A stretch of 30,123 nucleotides of DNA from a virus, in IMG/VR virus record IMGVR_UViG_3300032116_000950, positions 1-30,123 of that record. One strand, written 5' to 3'. A program made the translations under genes and the position numbers. This document shows positions 8,309 to 30,123 of the stretch, in pieces. Position 1 is the first letter of the stretch. Every line of letters begins with the position of its first letter. Below the pieces are notes generated by a model. That model searched no databases, was not told the origin of the DNA, and saw nothing but the letters and a program-made list of their open reading frames with translations.

Positions 8309-8335
8309 TGATTTTGTTTAATTTGCTTTATAAAT

Positions 8336-8380
8336 AAAGCCCCTGGAAAACTTTAAGGAAGAGAAACCAGGGGCTAATTA
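8336..8380 (-). terminator. Rho-independent terminator after 440-aa structural gene
   Basis: Inverted repeat AGCCCCTGG (8338-8346) / CCAGGGGCT (8367-8375): 9 perfect bp, GC-rich in an AT-rich genome, loop 20 nt. On the minus strand it is followed by TTTATTTAT. It separates the abundant structural genes above from the fibre genes below. Confidence 0.8.
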
Positions 8381-8405
8381 TACTAATTAAGGCTTTAAAG
8401 ATTGA

Positions 8406-8446
8406 CACATCAGAATGATGTGGATTGTAGTCTAAGGACTAGACTA
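8406..8446 (-). other. Two further stem-loops behind the 440-aa gene
   Basis: CACATCA (8406-8412) / TGATGTG (8416-8422), 7 bp with a GAA loop; and TAGTCTA (8428-8434) / TAGACTA (8440-8446), 7 bp with a 5-nt loop that includes the stop codon of the gene. Together with the terminator they make three consecutive hairpins in about 110 nt, perhaps protecting the 3' end of the mRNA. Confidence 0.65.
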
Positions 8447-11713: not shown

Positions 11714-11746
11714 TGTTTTAATAATTTGCCTTTATTAGTTTAAAAA

Positions 11747-11780
11747 TAAAGAGTGTTTGGGTAAGGTACACTCTTCAAAA
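11747..11780 (-). terminator. Terminator after major capsid gene
   Basis: AAGAGTGT (11749-11756) / ACACTCTT (11768-11775), 8 perfect bp, 11-nt loop. On the minus strand it is followed by TTTATTTTTAAA. It lies about 20 nt after the capsid stop codon, as expected for an attenuating terminator that sets capsid to downstream gene ratios. Confidence 0.75.
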
Positions 11781-11793
11781 CCTTTTATTTTTA

Positions 11794-14408: not shown

Positions 14409-14465
14409 GCTTGCCTTATTAGTAATATACTATAAATATAACTGTTTTGGTTATTGTCTCCTAAT

Positions 14466-14497
14466 TTTAAAAGTTAGACAGTTAACTAACTTTTTAT
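14466..14497 (-). terminator. Stem-loop between ferritin and scaffold genes
   Basis: AAAAGTTAG (14469-14477) / CTAACTTTT (14486-14494), 9 perfect bp, 8-nt loop. On the minus strand the 3' arm ends in TTTTAAAATT. It could end the TerL-portal-ferritin transcript partly and leave scaffold-capsid to a separate promoter; AT-rich stem, so strength is uncertain. Confidence 0.6.
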
Positions 14498-14504
14498 AGC
14501 TTTA

Positions 14505-15029: not shown

Positions 15030-17608
15030 TATTTTTTAGGTTTATTAGATTTAGCTTTAGCTGCGGCCAACTTCATACGTTCTATCTCCATCTTTTTATT
15101 CATCATATCTTTATCTAAAGCAGCTTTCTTATTAGCTAATTCAATTTGATTCTTATTTTGAATTTTAATTTGTTCAAGTTTCTTATTTTCTAGATCTTGT
15201 TTCATTCTAATCTCTTTATCTTTTTGAGCTAACTGAGCATCATGTTTAGATTTATCATGTCCAATCTTAGATTGTTCTAAGAATGCTTTAGATGATAATT
15301 CTTGTTGTTTTAATGCATTAGCCGCAATCTCTGAAGGATCAGGGATACCATTATCATTTTGATCTAAATCTTGTTGTCTAGCAAATACACCAATCTCAGC
15401 AATTTGAATTTTTGTAGAATTATTAGCTTCAGCAATATATCTTTCTTGATCAAGTTTTAAATGATCTAATTCAACTTGTTCAGCATGCATTTGTTGTTGA
15501 ATAGCTTCAACTTTCATTTCATGCTCTTGTTGAGCTTTAGAACTATCAGCTTGACGTTTATAGAACTCCTCTTCTTTACGTTGTAACAATCTTACAATAT
15601 CTCTAGGAGAATCATTCATTAATGTTTCAACTATTGAAGATAAATCTATTTTTTCAGACTGTAATGCTACTTGAACTAATTGGTCTAACTTAGCTTTTAA
15701 TTCAAGATCTTTAGTATTGTTAGTTACAAATACATTAAACTCTGAATTCTCAAATTCATTCTCTTCTAGGTTAAGCATCTCAATACCCATATCATCTAAG
15801 ACATACTGAGCAACTAATCCTTTCTTATAACATATCTTAGCAACTTCAATCATTGCTGTATAGGCTCTACGTTTAACTTCAGCATGAGCTTCGTACAAAT
15901 ATTCAGTAATTAATGATGATTGATTAACAGATCTTTCTACATTACCAACTAGTTCAGAGTTATTAATAGCACCTAAACGTTGAGGTGTAACACCAGATAC
16001 AAAGGCTACTTGTTGTTTAATGTAATCCAACATATTGATATATTGTTGAATAGATTGACTAAGACTTAAATCAATTGCTTGAAACTGATTAAACTTGTTG
16101 GCCAATTGTCCTGTAGCAGCACCTTTCTTACCTTCCTCAAATGAGTTAATGAATGCAATATTCATCTCTTTAAGATAGTACATCCACTTATCAATATCGA
16201 TACCTTGACTTTGAGGTATCTGAGCTAAGTCCATGATGAACTTCTTACCTTGATCTGAAGCAAATGCTATCTCTAATCTATAAGATATAATATCATATAA
16301 ATATTGATAAGGTTTTAATCTGTCAATTAAACTAACTGATTGAGAGTTAGTAGCTTCATATATAAATCCTGTATAACCTAATCTGCAGTAGTATGGATTA
16401 TCCAATCTACGTCTTTGGTTAGGTTTAGGTTTAATGTCTGTAAATATATCTAATCCAATTTTAACACCTTCCCAAGCTTCATTGATCCAATACCATTCTA
16501 CTTTAGCATCAGGGAAAGCTTCTTTAAATATTCTAGTATTAAAGAATTCATCTACAATCTCTGTATTAACAGTTCCTTCTTCATCAGTCCAAGTTAACTC
16601 ACCAATCTTCTTCATTGATTTCCATTCAACTCTAGTAACTCTAATAGAATAGTTATTACTATTATTTCCATTATAAGCATTAGTTGGAGTAACTCCTGCA
16701 AAAGCATTTTGTCCATTAACTACATCAAACTGAGGTTCAAATCCACCTGCTGTATTAAAAGAACCAAAGGTCCCTCTAGTATAATTTTCTAATTTCTCTA
16801 TATCTGCTTTAGATAGAATATCACCATATTCATCTAAAATAGTATTGATGGCCAACATACGTTCTTCAACTACTGCTATAGCATCATCAATAAAAGTAGT
16901 ATCTCCATCTAGTATCACAGTTAAGTTAACTGGATTAACTCTACGCATAGCTACTTCATCATTCTCAATACCTACCCAATAAATCTCTTCTCCAGCAATT
17001 AAAGCATCTTTCCATCCTTGAGAAAATAATAATCTAGTATTACATTTCTTCTTTAAAGACTTAAGAATCTTGTTAGCTTTAGATTCAATTATATCCGACG
17101 GTGTATATTTTTCATGCTTGATAATTTCTTCCGGTGGAGGTGGTGGATTATTAGGATCTGCATTAGGATCAATTTGATAAGCCAAACCTTGTTGTAAAGC
17201 CTGGAAAATCTTTTCCTTAATTGCTGAAGTCTTTCTGTTAATATCATCTGGAGATTCAGATACCACAATATGATTATCTGGACGTTTAGTTTCCTCACCA
17301 ATAAGTAACTTAATTGGTTCAGAGATGATGTCATAATGTTGAAATCTAGCGGGAAATGTATTTGAAGTATTGATACCCAATGGATCACATATAGTTTCAA
17401 TATCCTTATGGTTGACTTTACCATTATATAAATCGTAGTTAATTAACTTTCTAAGTCTATCAGAACGCAGATTACTACCATTAGTATATCTGTAATTTGA
17501 ATAATAATTAATGCAAGACTTACCCCACTCTTTGTCTTTGCTAGACATAGGTAACTTTTGTTGTGGTAAATTCTGACCACCTAAATTGGCGTATATATCT
17601 TGACTCAT
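15029..17608 (-). CDS. Portal protein
   Basis: 859 aa, the dodecameric ring through which DNA enters the head. Supporting features: position directly after TerL with an ATGA overlap; residues ~35-65 (YYSNYRYTNGSNLRSDRLRK), FPARFQHYDIISEPIKLLIG near residue 100, and the wing/stem region typical of large Bacteroidota phage portals. A Pro-rich stretch (NNPPPPPEE, ~residue 155) lies in the N-terminal third. The C-terminal ~200 residues form a long Gln/Lys/Glu coiled coil with an embedded DxNxDG-like loop (DLDQNDNGIPDPSE, ~747-760). The basic C-terminus ends KSNKPKK. Confidence 0.88.
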   Translation of the reverse strand: MSQDIYANLGGQNLPQQKLPMSSKDKEWGKSCINYYSNYRYTNGSNLRSDRLRKLINYDLYNGKVNHKDIETICDPLGINTSNTFPARFQHYDIISEPIKLLIGEETKRPDNHIVVSESPDDINRKTSAIKEKIFQALQQGLAYQIDPNADPNNPPPPPEEIIKHEKYTPSDIIESKANKILKSLKKKCNTRLLFSQGWKDALIAGEEIYWVGIENDEVAMRRVNPVNLTVILDGDTTFIDDAIAVVEERMLAINTILDEYGDILSKADIEKLENYTRGTFGSFNTAGGFEPQFDVVNGQNAFAGVTPTNAYNGNNSNNYSIRVTRVEWKSMKKIGELTWTDEEGTVNTEIVDEFFNTRIFKEAFPDAKVEWYWINEAWEGVKIGLDIFTDIKPKPNQRRRLDNPYYCRLGYTGFIYEATNSQSVSLIDRLKPYQYLYDIISYRLEIAFASDQGKKFIMDLAQIPQSQGIDIDKWMYYLKEMNIAFINSFEEGKKGAATGQLANKFNQFQAIDLSLSQSIQQYINMLDYIKQQVAFVSGVTPQRLGAINNSELVGNVERSVNQSSLITEYLYEAHAEVKRRAYTAMIEVAKICYKKGLVAQYVLDDMGIEMLNLEENEFENSEFNVFVTNNTKDLELKAKLDQLVQVALQSEKIDLSSIVETLMNDSPRDIVRLLQRKEEEFYKRQADSSKAQQEHEMKVEAIQQQMHAEQVELDHLKLDQERYIAEANNSTKIQIAEIGVFARQQDLDQNDNGIPDPSEIAANALKQQELSSKAFLEQSKIGHDKSKHDAQLAQKDKEIRMKQDLENKKLEQIKIQNKNQIELANKKAALDKDMMNKKMEIERMKLAAAKAKSNKPKK

Positions 17609-19698
17609 TGGTTTGTACTTGTGTTAAATTGGGAATTCTTCCTATTAAATATAAGGCCTTTTTTATAAATTCTTTCTAAGTAATTACTAATAGGGTTAGC
17701 ATCATTTGATAGCTCTTCTACATGTATTCTATGTAATTCATAGGTTTGTAAAATACATAGCATTAACGCAATAACTCTATCTGTATTTATTTCTCTATCA
17801 TAAGCTATTAACTCTTTTAGCAATGGTATAGATTTAATAGTCTGAAATCTAAGTTGTTTAGTTCCTTCTACCTCACCATTAATTTCCTCATATAACCATT
17901 TCTTAAGATATAACTCACACTGATCTTTAATACCCGCCGCACCTCCAGATCCTCTATTCATATGGATACCATATCCACGTTGAACTCTAGAATCCTTAAT
18001 CATATCCTTAATAATACCAGGTTGTTCACACATATATTGTAGAGAGTTCTTTTGTTCAAAGTATACCTTTAAACCTTTTAACTGGTTCTCATACAATACT
18101 TTAGAGTTATAATACATACATAGTTTTCTACATACTTCATAAAACTCTTCTGCAGTATCTGGTCTAGATGTGTATTCAGCAACTATAATATCATGAGTTC
18201 TATCCGCTCTATAAAATCTCTTATAGACAAAGAATGAGCCTAGAGATCCAGATTCTGATTTATCTTGATCATAAGGGTCACATCCTGCAATATATAAGTA
18301 ATTAGGTATCTCACCATTCTCATGTTTCTCAGGGTGTTCCCAAATCACTGCACAGCCATTTGTAGAGAATGATTCTCCTGACTTAGGATCTTTTCTTAAA
18401 GGGAAGTCTGTAATATGAACTAAGTCATCATTAGGTCTCCATTTAACATATCCATCATCAAAGAATAGTTCACCTTTCTGAGCTTGACCTCTAAGACTAG
18501 GAGTATTCTCTAAATGACCTAACCATTCTAACATCTCTGGAGAACCAAAGACATTACCTTTATTTCTTAAAAAAGCTTCTTTCCAAGTACAAGGGAATTG
18601 AGTAGTAATATTATGAATTGCTTTAGGATCTAAACCATGTTTAGCCTTAGCTCTTAAAAAGTCAATATCATCTTGAGCTGCTTCATAGTTAGAGTTACCA
18701 TCTTCATCAACCATAGGTTTTTTATACCATTTAGATTCTGGATTAAGACATAAGCCTAATCTGCCTTTTGTAGCTGAACTAAAGAACCCTATCCTGCCAT
18801 TAGGATTAAATGGATCCTCAAAATCTAACATGTTGTATTTTTCAGGATTAGTAAACATCTCATAGAAATACTTACTCCCTGAATCCATGTCTCCAGAAGA
18901 TCCAAATAACAGAGCTACACCTGTGTATGTACTACCGTCTTTTATAAGGGGTTCAGAGTAACCATATGCATCTACAATGTTTCCAAAAACACCGCATTCG
19001 TCGAGGATTAACCAGTTAGCACTAAGCCCAACACCACTAGTAGGATTATCTTTGTAGCTAATGGCACGCACTTCGGAATTAAACCCCTTCCACACCTTAA
19101 CCCCGCTAACAGTTGCCTGATACCTTGCCTTAATAAAGTCTTTAAGGTCAGGATTTCTTTGCTTTCTGAATTCAGTATTCATATTGATAAAATTTGAATT
19201 ATCAATAACCATATTCATAGTGTTTTGACTAAAGGTGCTGTAAAAAGCACCTATAATTGCTTTACTATCTGGATAGAAATAGAATTCATGTGTACATATT
19301 GCTGCAGCTTTGTAAGACCAACCTTGACGACGACCTTTTACAGCAACTAGTGATTTTTGATTTAGTCTACAATATTCTACCATGTGGAAGAATTCATAAT
19401 CTAAATCTATAAATCTAGGAAAGATTTTAGATTTCTTTCCAGTCTTTTCATTAAGACCTAATATTGGACAGAAGTTTAAATAGAAAAAATGTTGACCAGT
19501 AATATGTTGCCCACAAGAGTTAGTAAATCCATTTAAACATTTATCTCTAACATCTTGCCAGAACTCTACATATTCTATAGTTCCTGGAATAGAGTTAGTA
19601 TATAATCCTGTTCTATTATATTGTTCAGCAAGATATGAAAACTCTTTAGTATTCTTAAAGTAGTCTACACATATTACGTATTTATTGTCATTCAGCAT
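17605..19698 (-). CDS. terL: Terminase large subunit (TerL)
   Basis: 697 aa ATP-driven DNA packaging motor with nuclease. Visible parts in order: adenine-side motif region HITGQHFFYLNFCPI (~65-79), Walker A-like VKGRRQGWSYKAA (~120-132), Walker B WLILDE (~229-234), coupling motif LLFGSSGD (~263-270), then an RNase H-like nuclease with AGCDPYD (D474), VLYENQLKG (E537) and a late Asp before RVIALML (D640). All three acidic nuclease residues are present. It is the first gene of the head operon proper, followed by the portal (4-nt overlap). Confidence 0.95.
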   Translation of the reverse strand: MLNDNKYVICVDYFKNTKEFSYLAEQYNRTGLYTNSIPGTIEYVEFWQDVRDKCLNGFTNSCGQHITGQHFFYLNFCPILGLNEKTGKKSKIFPRFIDLDYEFFHMVEYCRLNQKSLVAVKGRRQGWSYKAAAICTHEFYFYPDSKAIIGAFYSTFSQNTMNMVIDNSNFINMNTEFRKQRNPDLKDFIKARYQATVSGVKVWKGFNSEVRAISYKDNPTSGVGLSANWLILDECGVFGNIVDAYGYSEPLIKDGSTYTGVALLFGSSGDMDSGSKYFYEMFTNPEKYNMLDFEDPFNPNGRIGFFSSATKGRLGLCLNPESKWYKKPMVDEDGNSNYEAAQDDIDFLRAKAKHGLDPKAIHNITTQFPCTWKEAFLRNKGNVFGSPEMLEWLGHLENTPSLRGQAQKGELFFDDGYVKWRPNDDLVHITDFPLRKDPKSGESFSTNGCAVIWEHPEKHENGEIPNYLYIAGCDPYDQDKSESGSLGSFFVYKRFYRADRTHDIIVAEYTSRPDTAEEFYEVCRKLCMYYNSKVLYENQLKGLKVYFEQKNSLQYMCEQPGIIKDMIKDSRVQRGYGIHMNRGSGGAAGIKDQCELYLKKWLYEEINGEVEGTKQLRFQTIKSIPLLKELIAYDREINTDRVIALMLCILQTYELHRIHVEELSNDANPISNYLERIYKKGLIFNRKNSQFNTSTNQ

Positions 19699-23067: not shown

Positions 23068-23422
23068 AATTTTTATTTTGAATTGAACACAATATTCCCC
23101 TTCCAGTTTGTACACCAGATGTTAGGATTAATTATAAACTTATATCTATCTGTCTTTAACCGTTCCAGTTACCTGGCCACTGCTTACTTTAACCCTGTTA
23201 ATTCAGGAGGATACTTCATACCTCTTGTAGCAGTTATAGAATTTCATTTATAACCTTTTTTTGTACCTATCGGAGAAACCTCAACCCTTATGTTTAGATG
23301 TTATTTCAATCTCAGAGTTTACTATCCAACTTCTAAGCAAGTGTTAACTTTTTGGGTATTCCTTGCTGAATTACTTCTTCAGTAATAGTACAGTATAAAT
23401 ATAAGCTTTTTCTAGGACACTA
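23068..23422 (-). other. Non-coding stretch with structured-RNA signs
   Basis: No convincing frame of more than about 20 codons on the minus strand; the plus-strand frame here looks like chance. On the minus strand it holds CCAG-GTAA-CTGG (23176-23165), a stem capped by a GNRA tetraloop, ATTACT/AGTAAT and GTTATA/TATAAC hairpins, and patches of higher GC than the neighbours. It could be a 5' leader regulating the 107-aa gene or a small RNA. No tRNA or known riboswitch is recognised. Confidence 0.4.
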
Positions 23423-25589: not shown

Positions 25590-25759
25590 AATATAAAGAT
25601 AAGCATTATTTAGTTATTTTTACAAATATTAATCACCAAAAATTTTATTTTTTTTCAAAATTTTCAATGTATATAAGGATTTCCAGCACCCCCAATTTCC
25701 ATCCCCCACTAAACTTTGAGAGAAAATCATTTCCTTTATAACTTTAAAACTATCACATT
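25590..25759. promoter_or_regulatory. Divergent promoter region between the two transcription units
   Basis: Genes leave this 170-bp region in both directions, so it must hold promoters for both strands. It contains long A/T tracts (25640-25675) and two runs of five C on the plus strand (25687-25710), rare in this AT-rich DNA. TAAACTTTG near 25713-25721 resembles the -7 element TAnnTTTG with one extra base. A replication origin is also possible; nothing decisive is seen. Confidence 0.5.
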
Positions 25760-25996
25760 ATGAAAACTTTATTAGAGTATTTAAAAGAATTAGGTGCAGT
25801 TAAAGCATCTATTATTGCTGGTCCAAATGGTAAATTTATTAGCTATGAATTAGCTAGTGGTGCTAAAGCTACATTACCAGTTGGTAAAAGGTCTTATGAT
25901 GGTACATTATCAACATTTAATGTATTGATTACTGAAGAGGGACAAGCTATTGCTACTGTCAACTCTTATGTAGAAGAGGAGACTATGTCATTATAG
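25760..25996 (+). CDS. Hypothetical protein, 78 aa, first plus-strand gene
   Basis: An N-terminal helix MKTLLEYLKELGAVKASIIA is followed by a beta-rich domain (GPNGKFISYELASGAKATLP ... STFNVLITEEGQAIATVNSY). The leader before the ATG is A-rich without a Shine-Dalgarno, as usual in Bacteroidota. It is followed by a terminator-like hairpin. First product of the rightward unit, so probably expressed early and strongly; role unknown. Confidence 0.8.
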   Translation: MKTLLEYLKELGAVKASIIAGPNGKFISYELASGAKATLPVGKRSYDGTLSTFNVLITEEGQAIATVNSYVEEETMSL

Positions 25997-26000
25997 TATT

Positions 26001-26030
26001 GAGTGAGAGCCTAGTGCTCTCCTCTTTATT
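26001..26030 (+). terminator. Terminator after the 78-aa gene
   Basis: GAG (26001-26003) plus GAGAGC (26005-26010), loop CTAGT, then GCTCTC (26016-26021) plus CTC (26022-26024): 9 bp with one bulged T, followed by TTTATTTAATT. Partial read-through to the genes behind it is likely. Confidence 0.75.
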
Positions 26031-26073
26031 TAATTCTAATTCAAATCCAATTAACCAATTAACCTTATATATT

Positions 26074-26196
26074 ATGTTAACTCTAACAATAATTCCAAAC
26101 TTATCTAACAAATTATCTGATAATCAGTTAGTTAAATCAATATTCATTTGCTTAGCAATGGATTTTGTTATACTATTAGCTTGTATTAATCTTTAA
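26074..26196 (+). CDS. Small membrane protein, 40 aa
   Basis: The ATG at 26074 is preferred to a TTG at 25999, because the region before it contains the terminator hairpin. The product starts MLTLTIIPNLSNKLSDNQLV and ends with a hydrophobic helix (SIFICLAMDFVILLACINL). Single-pass membrane topology predicted. The A/T-rich leader ending in TTATATATT resembles those of the neighbouring small genes. Confidence 0.55.
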   Translation: MLTLTIIPNLSNKLSDNQLVKSIFICLAMDFVILLACINL

Positions 26197-26212
26197 CAAC
26201 ACTTAAATATAT

Positions 26213-26292
26213 AACTCTCTCCAACTGCTTTGGAGTTAATTGAGATGTTTACATCTTAGTTAAGCTTGTGGAATAGACCACTGAGGAGAGTT
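26213..26292 (+). ncRNA. Cloverleaf-type structured RNA element
   Basis: Closing helix AACTCTC (26213-26219) / GAGAGTT (26286-26292). Inside are three hairpins: CCAA/TTGG (26221-26224 / 26230-26233); a 12-bp arm with two G-U pairs and a TTTA loop (26236-26247 / 26252-26263); and GTGG/CCAC (26268-26271 / 26278-26281). It has tRNA-like shape and size (80 nt) but no T-loop or anticodon arm of normal length, so it is not a tRNA. Fold read by eye. Confidence 0.5.
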
Positions 26293-26304
26293 TATATTTA
26301 ATTT

Positions 26305-26395
26305 AGAGTAATCTACTAGTTTAGTAGGAATTAATGCTCTGAAAGGCTTGAAAACATTGGGAATTATGGAATAGTAGATGGAGTACACTCCTCTC
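26305..26395 (+). ncRNA. Structured element with two exclusive folds
   Basis: ATCTACTA (26311-26318) can pair with TAGTAGAT (26372-26379), 8 bp, or its inner part CTACTA (26313-26318) with the nearer TAGTAG (26322-26327). A GGAGT/ACTCC hairpin (26380-26391) follows. The two pairings exclude each other, as in RNA switches. It forms the rest of the spacer with the cloverleaf and lies before the 63-aa gene; 26396-26507 is A/T-rich leader with nothing further seen. Confidence 0.4.
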
Positions 26396-26507
26396 CCTCA
26401 CCTTTTAACCCTAATCCTAACTTATCCTATAATTATATCCTCTTATATACACATAGCTTAATTAACAACTTATAAACCAATTATTAACCTCTAAAAACTA
26501 TCCAACT

Positions 26508-26699
26508 ATGAACACTTTACAACGTACTACTAAAAATGGTAGACCAATTATCAACAGACAAACTAAATTACCTGAATATGCATTCAGTGTACATAACAGA
26601 TTAAATACTGTTAAACGTGAATTAGGTTATGTAAACAACAAACCTAGTCATGACCAAATTTGGGCATCAATATGTGTTGGTGTCTCACTATTAACCTAA
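26508..26699 (+). CDS. Hypothetical basic protein, 63 aa
   Basis: Starts MNTLQRTTKNGRPIINRQTK, basic, with LNTVKRELGYVNNKPSHDQI and a hydrophobic C-terminus (WASICVGVSLLT). The basic N-terminal half may bind nucleic acid or a protein; no family recognised. Lies between two structured spacers and starts after an A-rich leader. Confidence 0.7.
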   Translation: MNTLQRTTKNGRPIINRQTKLPEYAFSVHNRLNTVKRELGYVNNKPSHDQIWASICVGVSLLT

Positions 26700-26705
26700 C
26701 TAAAT

Positions 26706-26796
26706 ATCTATTACATATTCCACTGTAAACCATTATATAACAAGGACTTGTGCAAGTATCAAGTATTATATTAATGTTTGTGGGTATGTAATAGAT
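26706..26796 (+). ncRNA. Rod-shaped structured RNA, 12-bp closing helix
   Basis: ATCTATTACATA (26706-26717) pairs perfectly with TATGTAATAGAT (26785-26796). The rod continues through CCAC/GTGG (26720-26723 / 26780-26783), AAAC/GTTT (26727-26730 / 26776-26779) and ATTATATAA with one bulge (26732-26740 / 26766-26775), with an ACTT/AAGT tip. A near-continuous double-stranded rod of this kind is a typical RNase III substrate. Confidence 0.5.
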
Positions 26797-26805
26797 TATC
26801 AATAT

Positions 26806-26881
26806 TAAACAGTTAAAGAGTGGCAGATGTAGAAATACATGCAGATTTAGTTTATACTATATGTTTCCGCCTAACTGTTTA
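26806..26881 (+). ncRNA. Three-way-junction RNA with GNRA hairpin
   Basis: TAAACAGTTA (26806-26815) pairs with TAACTGTTTA (26872-26881), 10 bp; then GTGG/CCGC (26820-26823 / 26867-26870); inside are ATGTA-GAAA-TACAT (26827-26840), a stem with a GNRA tetraloop, and TAGT/ACTA (26848-26859). It starts ten bases after the rod element, so the two may form one larger RNA. Confidence 0.5.
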
Positions 26882-26912
26882 TACCAAATTAATCATTTAA
26901 AACTAAATAATT

Positions 26913-27017
26913 ATGAAAACATTTCTATTATTCTGTAAAATGTTACATGTTAAAGAAAATACACATGAATATAATTACAGAAAAATTTACCCTAAATTAA
27001 ATGCTTTAACAAATTAA
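26913..27017 (+). CDS. Small basic protein, 34 aa
   Basis: Frame MKTFLLFCKMLHVKENTHEY ending YPKLNALTN, preceded by an A/T-rich leader like the other plus-strand genes (ACTAAATAATT before the ATG). Too short for standard calling but regularly spaced between the structured element and the next gene. A hydrophobic start followed by basic residues. Function unknown. Confidence 0.45.
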   Translation: MKTFLLFCKMLHVKENTHEYNYRKIYPKLNALTN

Positions 27018-27048
27018 ATAAATTATTAACTAATTAAAAACTATTACA

Positions 27049-27294
27049 ATGGAATCAAACTTATTACACATCATTGGATTCATATCCATATTATTCTATT
27101 TAGGTAATATGATAGCAGACTTTTGTATTGAAAGACCATTATCTGCACACATTGGATATGGATTAATATGTATTGTTACGTCATATTATATTAATCAAAT
27201 ATTAGGACTTACAATATCATTTGTATTTGTAGTCTATTCATTACTAATTCTAACTATTTATGTTGAATCAATTAAATCTAAACGTCATGCCTAA
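27049..27294 (+). CDS. Multi-pass membrane protein, 81 aa
   Basis: Three hydrophobic segments are visible (about residues 5-24, 33-48 and 52-71) separated by short polar turns (CIERPLSAH, YYINQIL), ending in a basic tail (SIKSKRHA). Likely inserted in the inner membrane of the infected cell. Small multi-pass proteins in early phage regions are often superinfection-exclusion or membrane-modifying factors; that is inference only. The next small frame overlaps its stop by 8 nt. Confidence 0.75.
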   Translation: MESNLLHIIGFISILFYLGNMIADFCIERPLSAHIGYGLICIVTSYYINQILGLTISFVFVVYSLLILTIYVESIKSKRHA

Positions 27295-27385
27295 ACTAAC
27301 TAAAGAAGAAATACATTATTACAGATTTCATCAAATATGTTTATCTGAATACACATACCTATATGCTTCAGTATTATACTCTTAA
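27287..27385 (+). CDS. Candidate 32-aa protein overlapping membrane gene
   Basis: The ATG at 27287 lies inside the end of the membrane protein gene (8-nt overlap), and the frame reads MPKLTKEEIHYYRFHQICLS followed by EYTYLYASVLYS. The overlap resembles the coupling on the other strand and the Tyr-rich helix is plausible as a real peptide. The region has no other explanation, but the evidence is only positional. Confidence 0.45.
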   Translation: MPKLTKEEIHYYRFHQICLSEYTYLYASVLYS

Positions 27386-27394
27386 ACAACATTA

Positions 27395-27523
27395 AACAAT
27401 CAACAAGCTCTCATATAATCTAATTAGCTATTTATAGCATTCAGACTTGGTCTATACATTAGTTATATCATCTTGTTAATTGTTGGATAGTCTTGACATA
27501 GACTTAAACTTTGTCAAACAATT
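27395..27523 (+). ncRNA. Multi-branched RNA with switch-like 3' part
   Basis: AACAATCAACAAG (27395-27407) pairs with CTTGTTAATTGTT (27472-27484), 13 bp with one mismatch. Inside is ATATAATCTAAT/ATTAGTTATAT (one bulge; 27413-27424 / 27458-27468) carrying hairpins GCTA-TTTA-TAGC and AGAC-TTG-GTCT. The 3' strand AATTGTT (27478-27484) can instead pair with AACAATT (27517-27523) around a TTGACA/TGTCAA hairpin. The alternative pairing could control the gene starting at 27565. Confidence 0.5.
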
Positions 27524-27564
27524 AATAAATCAATAAATCAATTAACAATTAAAAACAAGAAATC

Positions 27565-27993
27565 ATGTCAAAATTAATCGTAAAATCAAACCCAAACACA
27601 GGCTTAGTAATCAATGTATCTGAAAAAACTCCTAACTGGGGTTCAGTAATGGTAGCAGAAGACAGTTTTGTAATTAATGGTGGAATCATTAATAAACAAA
27701 CTCGTACAGCTTTCTTTAGAGCTGAATTAGCAACTTTAAATGCTATGAACTTGGCAGCAGGTTCAGAATTTCCTATTGAAGGAAAATTAATCCATCGTGA
27801 AGCTACTGCTCCTTTCTATAAAGGACAAAAGCCTAAAACTCAAGGTAAGGATGGTGGTGTATTATTATACAATGGTATGCCTATTTATCGTGAAACAGTA
27901 TTTACTTCAGAAATAGCTGAAGTAGATTTGTTAATCAAACATACTTCTGTAGCTCCAGTTGCAGTAAGTTCTCAACAACCACTTAACTCTTAG
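27565..27993 (+). CDS. Hypothetical protein, 142 aa
   Basis: Beta-rich soluble protein: SKLIVKSNPNTGLVINVSEK, then INKQTRTAFFRAELATLNAM, SEFPIEGKLIHREATAPFY and GGVLLYNGMPIYRETVFTSE, with a Ser/Gln/Val-rich flexible C-terminus (SVAPVAVSSQQPLNS). The strand-rich core with an acidic middle and a loose tail is reminiscent of OB-fold single-strand DNA-binding proteins, but I see no diagnostic motif. Its clean codon use and strong conservation-like composition suggest an abundant early product. A tRNA-like minihelix starts 10 nt after its stop. Confidence 0.75.
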   Translation: MSKLIVKSNPNTGLVINVSEKTPNWGSVMVAEDSFVINGGIINKQTRTAFFRAELATLNAMNLAAGSEFPIEGKLIHREATAPFYKGQKPKTQGKDGGVLLYNGMPIYRETVFTSEIAEVDLLIKHTSVAPVAVSSQQPLNS

Positions 27994-28003
27994 TAGTTAG
28001 TGT

Positions 28004-28049
28004 GAACTAGTTTTGGAATAAAGGAGGGTTCGATTCCCTCCACTAGTTC
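28004..28049 (+). ncRNA. tRNA-like T-arm minihelix
   Basis: GAACTAGT (28004-28011) pairs perfectly with ACTAGTTC (28042-28049), enclosing GGAGGG-TTCGATT-CCCTCC (28023-28041), which is an exact tRNA T arm with the TTCRANN loop. The D and anticodon arms of a tRNA are replaced by an 11-nt strand (TTTGGAATAAA). The GC-rich arm stands out from its surroundings. It may be a tRNA mimic, a fragment left by a lost tRNA, or a processing/terminator signal. Confidence 0.65.
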
Positions 28050-28348
28050 TTATATTGAGTTTATGTGATAGTTTCCTCAATACAGTTTAAGTATTCTGTA
28101 AAAATACTCCTTGTAGGTTAGTTGGTCAAACCTTACTTTAAAATATTGTAACATTAGTTACTAAAGATGATAGTTAGGTGGTGTATTTGGTAGTTCTTAT
28201 ACAACATACTATACGTGAGGTGGTTTAATATCTTTCCACCAGTTAGTCCAAAACTAAAAGATAATATTATATAACTTGTTGAAACAAAGTCTTACTAACT
28301 TTAAAGTAAATAAGTTATATTTTATTTAAAACATTAAAACAATAAATT
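28050..28348 (+). ncRNA. Structured spacer with a tRNA-type D arm
   Basis: Non-coding, ~300 nt. Helices in order: TATTGAG/CTCAATA (28053-28059 / 28076-28082); AGTATT/AATACT (28090-28095 / 28103-28108); GGTT-AGTTGGTCA-AACC (28116-28132), which matches a tRNA D arm including the GG pair; GTAAC-ATTA-GTTAC; GGTGG/CCACC (28219-28223 / 28236-28240); and ATATAACTT/AAGTTATAT (28269-28277 / 28312-28320). No anticodon arm could be fitted between D arm and any T arm, so no tRNA is called. Confidence 0.4.
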
Positions 28349-28525
28349 ATGAAAAATATAATAAAGCTTAAAGAAGTAATGTCATTTAATGAATGTCAAT
28401 ATTTACTTAAAATGAATCCTTGGCAATATGATAATAAAATACTTTACAAAAGAAGAAAGAGACTTAAAAATAAGTATTTTTATTTAATAATTGAAAGAGG
28501 TCATAATCATTGTACAAAAAATTAA
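28349..28525 (+). CDS. Hypothetical basic protein, 58 aa
   Basis: A frame just under usual length cutoffs: MKNIIKLKEVMSFNECQYLL, then KMNPWQYDNKILYKRRKRLK, ending RGHNHCTKN. Strongly basic second half, likely nucleic-acid binding. The leader AATAAATT before the ATG matches neighbouring genes. Its stop lies inside the 5' strand of the next hairpin (28522-28529). Confidence 0.65.
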   Translation: MKNIIKLKEVMSFNECQYLLKMNPWQYDNKILYKRRKRLKNKYFYLIIERGHNHCTKN

Positions 28526-28553
28526 TCAGAGTAACTTTTGTGATACTGATTAA
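28522..28553 (+). other. 8-bp hairpin over the stop of the 58-aa gene
   Basis: TTAATCAG (28522-28529) / CTGATTAA (28546-28553), 16-nt loop. Directly followed by the 12-bp cloverleaf element, so they may stack. Confidence 0.5.
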
Positions 28554-28554
28554 T

Positions 28555-28656
28555 AATAAACTCTTATCCAATTGTAGAATAAATAGTTCAACTGAATTTA
28601 GAACACCTATCTTAAGTAGGAGGTATAGCCAAGGTACAACCTTGTAAGAGTTTATT
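28555..28656 (+). ncRNA. Cloverleaf structured RNA with 12-bp closing helix
   Basis: AATAAACTCTTA (28555-28566) pairs perfectly with TAAGAGTTTATT (28645-28656). Inside are GTTC/GAAC (28586-28589 / 28601-28604), CCTA/TAGG (28606-28609 / 28617-28620) and CAAGGT-ACA-ACCTTG (28630-28644), the last directly abutting the closing helix for coaxial stacking. Same overall plan as the element at 26213-26292 but with no clear sequence similarity to it. Confidence 0.55.
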
Positions 28657-28703
28657 TAAAACAAATTAAAATATAATATCCCTAATAAATATTCTAACAA
28701 AAC

Positions 28704-28812
28704 TTAGTGGTTGTCCATTAACTTGGTAGTTGTATATAATTATTAGTCGTTTTCTCATTATATACACAAATATGAAACCACCAAACAAGTGAGAGGCTTG
28801 TTCTTTTTAAAT
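28704..28812 (+). terminator. Hairpin series ending in a terminator
   Basis: TTAGTGG-TTGT-CCATTAA (28704-28721, one G-U), then a 10-bp arm TGTATATAAT/ATTATATACA (28731-28740 / 28757-28766) closed by TTGGT/ACCAA (28723-28727 / 28780-28784), then AACAAG-TGAGAGG-CTTGTT (28784-28802) followed by CTTTTTAAAT. The last hairpin is a good intrinsic terminator; the two secreted-protein genes follow it. Confidence 0.6.
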
Positions 28813-28851
28813 AATTCAATCAAAATATAAATCAACTAAAACCTAGAAATC

Positions 28852-29328
28852 ATGAAAGAATCAGTGAAAATCAAATTGCTATTTATAAGCTTAATGCTTA
28901 TTGTAATGTCTGCATGTGCATTTGCACAACAATCAGGTTTTGATACTAACATATCTAAAACTAGATCTCAATTAAAACAATTAGAAAAAACTAAAATCAA
29001 ATTAGATTTATCTGTATTTGTAGATGATCAATCAATTGATGATACATCATATGTATTAAATATTGTAAACTACAACAATGGTGTATTAACATCAATGCAT
29101 GTATCTAACAAATTTGTATTATTTTTAGATTACTCTACTGAATATGAAATATCAATAAATTATAAAAATACTAACACTAAAGTAATAATTGTTAATACTG
29201 AAGCTACCTACAATAATTGGTATATTGTAACATCTGTTGCATTAACTTCAGGTGTAAATGATAGGATTTTAGCAGGTGGAATTAAATTTGATTATGAATT
29301 AAACACATTTAAAAAATATAAAAACTAA
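28852..29328 (+). CDS. Secreted or lipid-anchored phage protein, 158 aa
   Basis: A clear signal peptide: MKESVKIKLLFISLMLIVMS followed by ACAFAQQ. An AFA-QQ cut suits signal peptidase I; MSAC could also be a weak lipobox. The mature part has a short helix (KTRSQLKQLEKTK) and a beta-rich domain (LDLSVFVDDQSIDDTS ... NWYIVTSVALTSG, AGGIKFDYELNTFKKYKN). The domain style resembles Bacteroidota envelope proteins. It acts in the periplasm or at the cell surface, perhaps blocking superinfection; host-gene capture is possible. Confidence 0.75.
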   Translation: MKESVKIKLLFISLMLIVMSACAFAQQSGFDTNISKTRSQLKQLEKTKIKLDLSVFVDDQSIDDTSYVLNIVNYNNGVLTSMHVSNKFVLFLDYSTEYEISINYKNTNTKVIIVNTEATYNNWYIVTSVALTSGVNDRILAGGIKFDYELNTFKKYKN

Positions 29329-29373
29329 TTAACGAGTCAGATTAATTTCTGACTCACTTTAAAATAAAATACT

Positions 29374-29787
29374 ATGAATAAAATATTTAAAATTAAATTA
29401 TTGACAATATTATTCTCAATAATTTTAACCAACACATTTAGTCAATCAATAACAACTGAAATAGCACAATATTGTGATTATGATACAACATTAGATTTAT
29501 GGAAAGATTGTACAATGGATTATAATCATACTTCATTATTTGTAATCAATGAACAAGAAACAATGATTACACATATAACAATAGATAATAAATCAACATA
29601 TTATATTACTGATAAAACAGTAGAGTTTAATGAAAAAAAAGAGAAAGTATGGATGTATACAGTAAATAGTGATTTAGGTAAACAATATATTGTTAAAATA
29701 AACCCTATTGCTAGAACTATATTATGTGTATATTCTGTAGATAATGAAATTAAAGGAACTACTTTTACAATTAAATCAATATTTTAA
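29374..29787 (+). CDS. Secreted phage protein, 137 aa
   Basis: Signal peptide MNKIFKIKLLTILFSIILTN followed by TFSQS (likely cut before or after Ser). The mature part is beta-rich with two Cys close together (AQYCDYDTTLDLWKDC) that could form a disulfide outside the cytoplasm. No known domain. It follows the 158-aa secreted protein by 45 nt, which includes a small hairpin (GAGTCAG / CTGACTC at 29334-29354), so the pair is probably co-transcribed and acts together in the envelope. Confidence 0.75.
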   Translation: MNKIFKIKLLTILFSIILTNTFSQSITTEIAQYCDYDTTLDLWKDCTMDYNHTSLFVINEQETMITHITIDNKSTYYITDKTVEFNEKKEKVWMYTVNSDLGKQYIVKINPIARTILCVYSVDNEIKGTTFTIKSIF

Positions 29788-29842
29788 TATTGGTAATTTT
29801 GAGATTGGAGTTAAATGAGCAATTAATTACTTATAACGATTG

Positions 29843-29955
29843 AGTATAAATGAAGTAAACGTGAACAAAGAAGCCTATAGAAGTTGAGCCATTAATCAAC
29901 CATGTGGAGGTGTAATAAACCACAGAAAAAACACCACGTTTATTTCTTTTATACT
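29843..29955 (+). ncRNA. Structured RNA closed by a 21-bp helix
   Basis: Bases 29843-29863 (AGTATAAATGAAGTAAACGTG starts it) pair with 29935-29955: 20 of 21 positions pair, one of them G-U, with one T-T mismatch. Inside are GTTGA/TCAAC (29883-29887 / 29896-29900) and TGTGG/CCACA (29903-29907 / 29920-29924), making a three-way junction. The longest helix in the window; such length is not expected by chance in 113 nt. The rest of the spacer (29956-30038) is A/T-rich leader. Confidence 0.6.
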
Positions 29956-30038
29956 TTGTTATAAAATTGTTTTAATGTTTTAACGTTCTCCAGCTTGTTG
30001 CAGTTGCAGATAATTAATTACTTAATAAAACAAAAATT

Positions 30039-30123
30039 ATGGATATTACAGAAAGAATACATAACGCAATAGAGTGGGCAAATAAACGCCTAACATTACA
30101 AGGTCAAGAACTTTCACAAGAAC
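30039..30123 (+). CDS. Partial coding region at right edge
   Basis: An ATG at 30039 after the usual A-rich leader (AAAACAAAAATT) opens a frame that runs off the window: MDITERIHNAIEWANKRLTL followed by QGQELSQE. It begins with an amphipathic helix. Only 28 codons are visible, too few to name. Confidence 0.6.
   Translation, partial: MDITERIHNAIEWANKRLTLQGQELSQE

Follow-up and report, generated by a model that had tools for sequence, protein, structure and literature searches.

The antisense RNA C4 of phages P1 and P7 acts within the operon of its origin and has one main target gene, in the lysogeny circuit. Analyzed here is a stretch of 30,123 nucleotides (nt) from a virus (the window; positions 1 to 30,123 of IMG/VR record IMGVR_UViG_3300032116_000950), which is a fragment of a crAss-like phage and carries, in a plus-strand gene cluster, two conserved structured RNAs, E1 and E2. 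The explanation we favor, and regard as rather probable, is that E1 is an antisense small RNA repressing the phage's own early genes, recognized by a short tag before their start codons, and that E2 is the 5′ leader of the gene of a probable single-strand-binding protein (SSB), resembling the operator of gene 32 of phage T4. The label "early" is inferred from gene position and from knowledge of the Crassvirales.

Like C4, the precursor of which is cut by RNase P (PMC11143913), E1 would be a phage antisense RNA; it differs by its two to five tagged genes per genome and by following a tRNA-like element, whereas C4 itself is the substrate of the cut. The T4 protein RegA provides the precedent for one trans-acting factor on the start regions of several early messages (PMC3014915); RegA is a protein with loose site preference, whereas E1 would be an RNA with a fixed complementary tag. 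Phage RNAs base-pairing with phage or host messages are sar (P22), OOP (lambda), VpdS (VP882), and PreS (lambda), of which sar blocks translation initiation; these belong to temperate phages, and for none of the RNAs in the table of the corresponding review is a tagged set of early genes of the same phage given as the target (PMC12197685). Phage regulatory RNAs covered by that review are mostly from temperate phages, with one or few targets each.

With the operator of T4 gene 32, E2 shares a pseudoknot upstream of an SSB gene (here a probable one), followed by a leader of about 40-57 nt that is unstructured, rich in A+U, and contains UUAA/UAAA repeats; next to the T4 pseudoknot lies a homing endonuclease gene, and an endonuclease-like open reading frame (ORF) borders E1 in the relative G026 (PMC3014915, PMC535899). 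The comparison is one of layout; the protein is a different one, and E2 has a branched junction before its pseudoknot. A 2010 review calls gene 32 perhaps the sole viral pseudoknot in translational autoregulation (PMC3014915), to which a pseudoknot before a probable SSB gene would, if true, add the second case. A tagged set of own early genes under the control of a phage RNA would be a new means by which crAss-like phages leave early expression and, if borne out, a new variant of phage antisense regulation, and the tag yields predictions testable gene by gene. That this crAss-like clade possesses an RNA master regulator, freed by tRNA-type processing and silencing a tagged class of own genes, as a counterpart of RegA, together with an independently evolved gene-32-like SSB operator, we rate at a little short of an even chance.

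E1 and the tag before start codons

The terminase encoded at 17605-19698 on the minus strand has crAss-like phages as relatives (30-37% identity among the 30 of 166 records listed), and close relatives of the window are present in IMG/VR. The comparison set comprised 16 related IMG/VR records, some of them partial. Twelve genomes, including the window, form the clade with E1, while G016, G017, G020, G022, and G024 are relatives without detectable E1. E1 is located after the gene of a 142-amino acid (aa) protein and is laid out as hairpin, pseudoknot, and hairpin. The features are as follows:

28053-28147, plus strand: E1, conserved structured RNA (covariance model matches in 12 genomes, covariation, stop codons in all six frames)
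28053-28059/28076-28082, plus strand: P1 of E1, with apical loop 28060-28075
28066-28073, plus strand: E1 seed TGATAGTT within the apical loop of P1, complement of the tag found ahead of start codons
28083-28085/28096-28098, plus strand: pseudoknot of E1
28091-28095/28103-28107, plus strand: P2 of E1
28115-28119/28129-28133, plus strand: P3 of E1
28004-28049, plus strand: tRNA-like minihelix (acceptor-like stem 28004-28011/28042-28049; T arm 28023-28041 with loop TTCGATT)

Conservation, not folding energy, points to E1 and E2; blastn identity is 84-93% in nine genomes for 28053-28147 and 71-86% in 11 genomes for 27388-27519, and several protein families of the cluster are at 32-67%. With a covariance model from five sequences, a single strong copy of E1 per genome is found in the window and in 11 of 28 records (E <1e-10); the remaining 17 are fragments or more distant phages, some of them with weak matches of up to 27.3 bits. 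On the model-fitted alignment of 11 distinct rows, 98.2% of the cells pair and nine of 20 pairs are changed on both sides, a covariation level that none of 500 shuffles reaches, with slid structures pairing at 35-50%; the counts for P1 to P3 are biased in favor of the structure, to which the alignment was fitted. Covariation sits in P1 (five pairs) and P2 (three pairs), P3 being nearly invariant, and the pseudoknot, which is absent from the covariance model, is supported by one covarying pair and a hand count. Further standard pair types in E1 are not above shuffles (12 versus 13.3).

That E1 and E2 are conserved structured RNAs is well supported. The first-pass annotation of the window had raised the possibility of a new family of phage small RNAs and had named covarying base pairs in relatives as the check; such pairs are present in both elements, neither of which reaches an Rfam family at gathering score (no match of the window among 4227 families), and the proposal is thus supported for these two. 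At E values up to 1, the only Rfam match in 25600-30123 is one of 17 nt to the T arm of transfer-messenger RNA (tmRNA), at 28024-28040. More distant phages gave weak matches only to E1 and E2 (about 15-27 bits). Bacterial genomes contained three exact pattern matches, of which two scored 18.1 and 17.4 bits with the E1 model and the third nothing, and in a looser viral scan with 96 stretches, 80 of them listed, the 68 new loci gave one strong match, on the contig of G025 itself. A TROVE protein, as partner of a Y-RNA-like element, was found in none of eight records, and no report of the E1 or E2 RNAs was found in the open-licence PMC literature, where several listings were off topic. The stretch 3′ of E1, 28148-28330, is 94.5% identical to G003 only and contains a second TGATAGTT copy at 28168-28175.

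The P1 loop reads UGAUAGUU in all 12 E1 copies, in each of which the seed is identical; the regular expression used first required the loop letters, while the covariance model search did not, yet gave no other loops. The complement of the loop, AACUAUC(A), was first noticed in the leader of the gene at 25760 of the window, the other 11 genomes being the test. Among simply called ORFs of at least 30 aa, some of them spurious, AACTATC lies at most 25 nt before the start of 36 of the 98 located upstream of E1 on the same strand (34 of 89 with the window excluded), as compared to none of 148 downstream of E1 and one of 839 others in the same genomes; it precedes none of 250 ORFs in the five relatives without detectable E1. 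The corresponding counts for AACTATCA are 21, 0, 0, and 0. Every genome of the clade has two to five tagged ORFs, and 19 blastp families include a tagged member. Tags start at -12 (17), -11 (5), -10 (9), -7 (4), and -24 (1), that is, 35 of 36 within -12 to -7. Of 210 permutations of its letters, the tag is the commonest, the runner-up (21) overlapping it, and a 7-mer scan over the tRNA-like element, E1, and the flank has one peak, the P1 loop (GATAGTT; 36/98, 0/148, and 3/838). Duplexes of at most -8 kcal/mol with the genome's own loop are predicted for 46 of 98 upstream leaders, 15 of 148 downstream ones, and 67 of 839 others. The slot gene between E2 and E1 is without the tag in all 12 genomes. 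In the window, three leaders are candidates:

25746-25758, plus strand: predicted E1 target, leader of the 78-aa gene 25760-25996 (own-loop duplex of 12 pairs, -14.5 kcal/mol)
26495-26502, plus strand: predicted E1 target, leader of the 63-aa gene 26508-26699 (AACTATC at -12, -8.9 kcal/mol)
27038-27048, plus strand: possible E1 target, leader of the 81-aa gene 27049-27294 (AAACTATTACA, 11 pairs including one G-U, -11.5 kcal/mol)

The family of the 63-aa gene carries the tag in ten of its 12 members; the leader of 27049-27294 was left out of the tagged count because it lacks AACTATC. Loop-to-leader complementarity is well supported by these comparisons of sequence.

The tRNA-like element stands directly after the stop codon of the gene preceding E1. 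At the same place, the Rfam tRNA family (RF00005) matches in six relatives with 42.8-63 bits (threshold 29; seven sources searched), and ARAGORN calls a tRNA at the element of G026 and a tRNA-Gln about 130 nt ahead of E1 in G002. In the window, no RF00005 match above gathering score is present; the minihelix has neither D arm nor anticodon arm, and its T arm matches positions 347-363 only of the tmRNA model, with 14.5 bits, the gathering score of 47 not being reached. Reduction to acceptor stem and T arm is likewise found in G021, G012, and G025. The length of the element varies (44, 46, 74, or 92 nt), yet in ten of the 11 genomes in which spacing was taken (G002 not among them) it ends exactly 4 nt 5′ of P1. 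The exception is G026, with a 169-aa ORF (L119 8120-8629), by eye an HNH-type homing endonuclease, between the element and E1. Downstream of the homologous gene in G017, a more distant phage, a terminator-like hairpin with a T run is recognizable by eye.

Structures of the tRNA type are cut by RNase P and tRNase Z, and in the dicistronic tRNA-snoRNA genes of plants, which are nuclear genes, the tRNA frees a downstream noncoding RNA, albeit one unrelated to E1. RNase P cleaves model substrates made of acceptor, T stem, and T loop at the correct position (PMC11143913). We infer that E1 is released by tRNA-type cutting at this element. The early transcript had been proposed to be cut into single-gene pieces; a tRNA or acceptor-T-arm minihelix after the 142-aa gene lends this part of the first-pass annotation only indirect support, by a route other than RNase III.

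Combining these observations, E1 would be part of the transcript of the plus-strand gene cluster, a cut at the tRNA-like element 4 nt upstream defining its 5′ end. The exposed P1 loop would pair in the cell with AACUAUC(A) before the start codons of genes upstream of E1, blocking ribosome entry, and the accumulation of E1 would shut down the tagged gene set. Repression of the tagged genes by E1 is moderately supported.

E2 and the slot protein

E2 consists of a three-way junction, to which some genomes add a hairpin and whose internal loop CUCUC/CAU is invariant, followed by an H-type pseudoknot. Its parts and the gene behind it are:

27388-27519, plus strand: E2, conserved leader RNA ahead of the 142-aa gene (12 genomes, covariation)
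27388-27484, plus strand: branched junction of E2, internal loop CUCUC/CAU
27489-27493/27500-27504 (S1) and 27494-27498/27512-27516 (S2), plus strand: H-type pseudoknot of E2
27517-27564, plus strand: A-rich, nearly G-free leader, 48 nt from the pseudoknot to the start codon
27565-27993, plus strand: 142-aa protein, probable OB-fold single-strand-binding protein (structure model, fold lists)

On a MAFFT alignment not fitted to the structure, 93.8% of the cells of E2 pair and 33 are changed on both sides, which none of 500 shuffles attains. The number of pairs changed on both sides is not beyond shuffles (8 versus 6.2; 83 of 500), nor are further standard pair types (15 versus 18.3); RNAalifold finds seven covarying pairs. 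S1 and S2 are complementary in 13 genomes by a hand count in which the strands were chosen per genome, with a bias towards pairing; on the unfitted alignment, in which, by eye, four rows are shifted against the others at the pseudoknot, 88.6% and 78.3% of their cells pair, respectively. Swapped partners pair at 39-62% in the pseudoknot and at 47-93% elsewhere in E2, the 93% applying to the closing helix, which is hardly informative. From the pseudoknot to the ATG, the leader spans 45-57 nt with 0-2% G in 13 genomes, and its last 45 nt have a mean unpaired probability of 0.64-0.87. UUAA and UAAA occur with a median of 6 in E2 leaders versus 3 in 611 other leaders (p 1.7e-6, the rows being related).

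The 142-aa protein is, judging from its model, a probable SSB. The model (pLDDT, a per-residue confidence score, 85.7) has an OB fold; the first 21 Foldseek rows are SSB and PriB chains, the best E value being only 0.12, and VIA-align gives mostly SSB and PriB rows, along with molybdate and tungstate binders, at Z up to 5.9, where values below 8 may reflect merely a common arrangement. Absence of a family from a fold list does not exclude it. No PHROG or Pfam match was obtained for the protein, and its family had no match in GenBank phages with the G002 homolog as query. The slot of G003 is occupied by a different protein (117 aa), for which no sequence relation was detected and the poorer model of which (pLDDT 65) retrieves arcadin-1 first (E 0.0065) and then PriB and SSB chains (E from 0.014). 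The Pfam SSB profile finds no SSB in any of seven records searched, five of them in the E1 clade. From this anatomy, E2 would be a gene-32-like operator through which surplus SSB represses its own translation. This assignment is by analogy only and is the weakest part of our explanation.

Competing explanations

Several results weigh against the explanation given above. The positions flanking the seed show no covariation between loop and leader (own versus swapped partners, p 0.19), and one flanking match is missing from the G005 loop. In a generic search that ranked complementary words by enrichment, the seed came first in G013 only; applied to relatives without E1, this search was uninformative. 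Since the clade is one lineage, the co-occurrence of tag and E1 comes close to a single event of evolution, and the counts lack independence. Without the fitted alignment, RNAalifold keeps P2 and P3 of E1 and misses P1, because the 5′ strand of the latter is misplaced. On the protein side, the SSB fold scores are weak.

The tag, AAAACTATC(A), could instead be a DNA element, for instance an early promoter with very short leaders, its match to the E1 loop arising by chance. Early genes of crAss-like phages are transcribed by a virion RNA polymerase (PMC7886860, PMC10136315), the tag is restricted to the cluster, and its absence from the five relatives without E1 would fit as well; the fixed distance from the start codon in 35 of 36 cases is that of a translation element, however, no second conserved box is seen in the 40 nt upstream of 40 tags, and the complement coincides exactly with the conserved loop of a conserved RNA, which makes this reading unlikely. 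Pairing as such would also fit E1 activating or protecting the messages, or leaders acting as sponges for an E1 with host RNA targets; since an RNA bound at the tag would be in the way of the ribosome, we consider this improbable. That E1 is a cis-acting 5′ leader element of the next gene, as a conserved RNA between genes might be, is very improbable, given that genomes differ in the ORF that follows and in its distance (24 to 299 nt), while the tRNA-like element and the preceding gene are kept.

For E2, a riboswitch or messenger RNA stabilizer without binding by the 142-aa protein has a substantial probability, albeit one below even: the fold matches are weak and include molybdate- and tungstate-binding OB-fold proteins, and a branched junction with a conserved internal loop is present besides the pseudoknot. 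For an SSB operator speak the SSB and PriB chains leading or nearly leading the fold lists of two proteins of the same slot, the lack of a Pfam SSB in the records mentioned, and the layout matching T4 gene 32. The view of the first-pass annotation, by which the spacers are RNase III-like cutting or stabilizing stations dividing the early transcript, finds its arguments in long helices with good z-scores and in a cluster rich in noncoding DNA; it is quite improbable, as the strongest folds are not conserved, cluster spacers fold no better than others, and the loops of E1 and E2 are conserved, which mere stability would not need.

Folded spacers and further noncoding stretches

The folds named in the first-pass annotation exist, and most beat dinucleotide shuffles, four of six being matched by at most three of 200; their z values are only nominal, because the windows were chosen for their folding. 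None of 200 shuffles is as stable as 29843-29955 (z -6.85) or 26204-26302 (z -4.91), as compared to one for 27388-27484 (z -3.62), three for 26706-26796 (z -2.56), six for 28553-28658 (z -2.22), and eight for 26806-26881 (z -2.00). Whole spacers have z of about -2 each (26197-26507, 26700-26911, 27386-27564, and 27994-28348), -3.7 (29788-30039), and -0.3 (28526-28851); in the short spacers 25997-26073 and 29329-29373, a terminator-like hairpin dominates. High spacer density of the cluster was confirmed in nine genomes, the share outside ORFs of at least 45 aa being 24-65% versus 5-7% in the rest of the genome, with the cluster value inflated by counting genes of less than 45 aa as noncoding. 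An excess of folding was not found: across 12 genomes, mean z is -2.06 for cluster spacers (n=67) and -1.93 for others (n=74; Mann-Whitney p 0.52). Neither are the spacers a chain of one RNA family, for E2 is the only named fold kept throughout the clade, and blastn finds no relative of the two strongest in the 16 related genomes. E1 itself is no more stable than shuffles (z +0.60). Folding energy is of little use for finding conserved elements; as the main argument it was rejected, because E1 lacks an excess and cluster spacers equal the others. Neither the promoter box TANNTTTG (39 observed versus 51 expected) nor sigma-70-like sites (64 versus 61.7) are enriched.

The minus-strand genes, described as almost without spacers, do include a conserved noncoding stretch of 355 nt (23068-23422). 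Within it, about 330 nt (23087-23415, minus strand), located among small genes, align in 14 genomes, including phages without E1; RNAalifold gives 33 pairs, 17 of them changed on both sides, at no excess folding energy (z -0.30 and +0.12). With no meaningful match in Rfam or among phage records, this is possibly a new large phage RNA. Noncoding DNA at 28690-28848, ahead of the gene at 28852, is matched by blastn over 25-155 nt in 11 of the 16 genomes. A group I intron match of 78.3 bits occurs in G021 (L108 9372-9629). Two relatives, G025 (L130 12175-12563) and G012 (L127 15974-16360), have a tmRNA gene, also called by ARAGORN, with a 33-residue tag ending in ELLAA; that of G025 scores 56 bits in Rfam, and tRNA matches come after it. 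The minus-strand spacers 8309-8443, 11714-11793, and 14409-14504 are 82-95% identical in seven to nine relatives and are perhaps late promoters or terminators.

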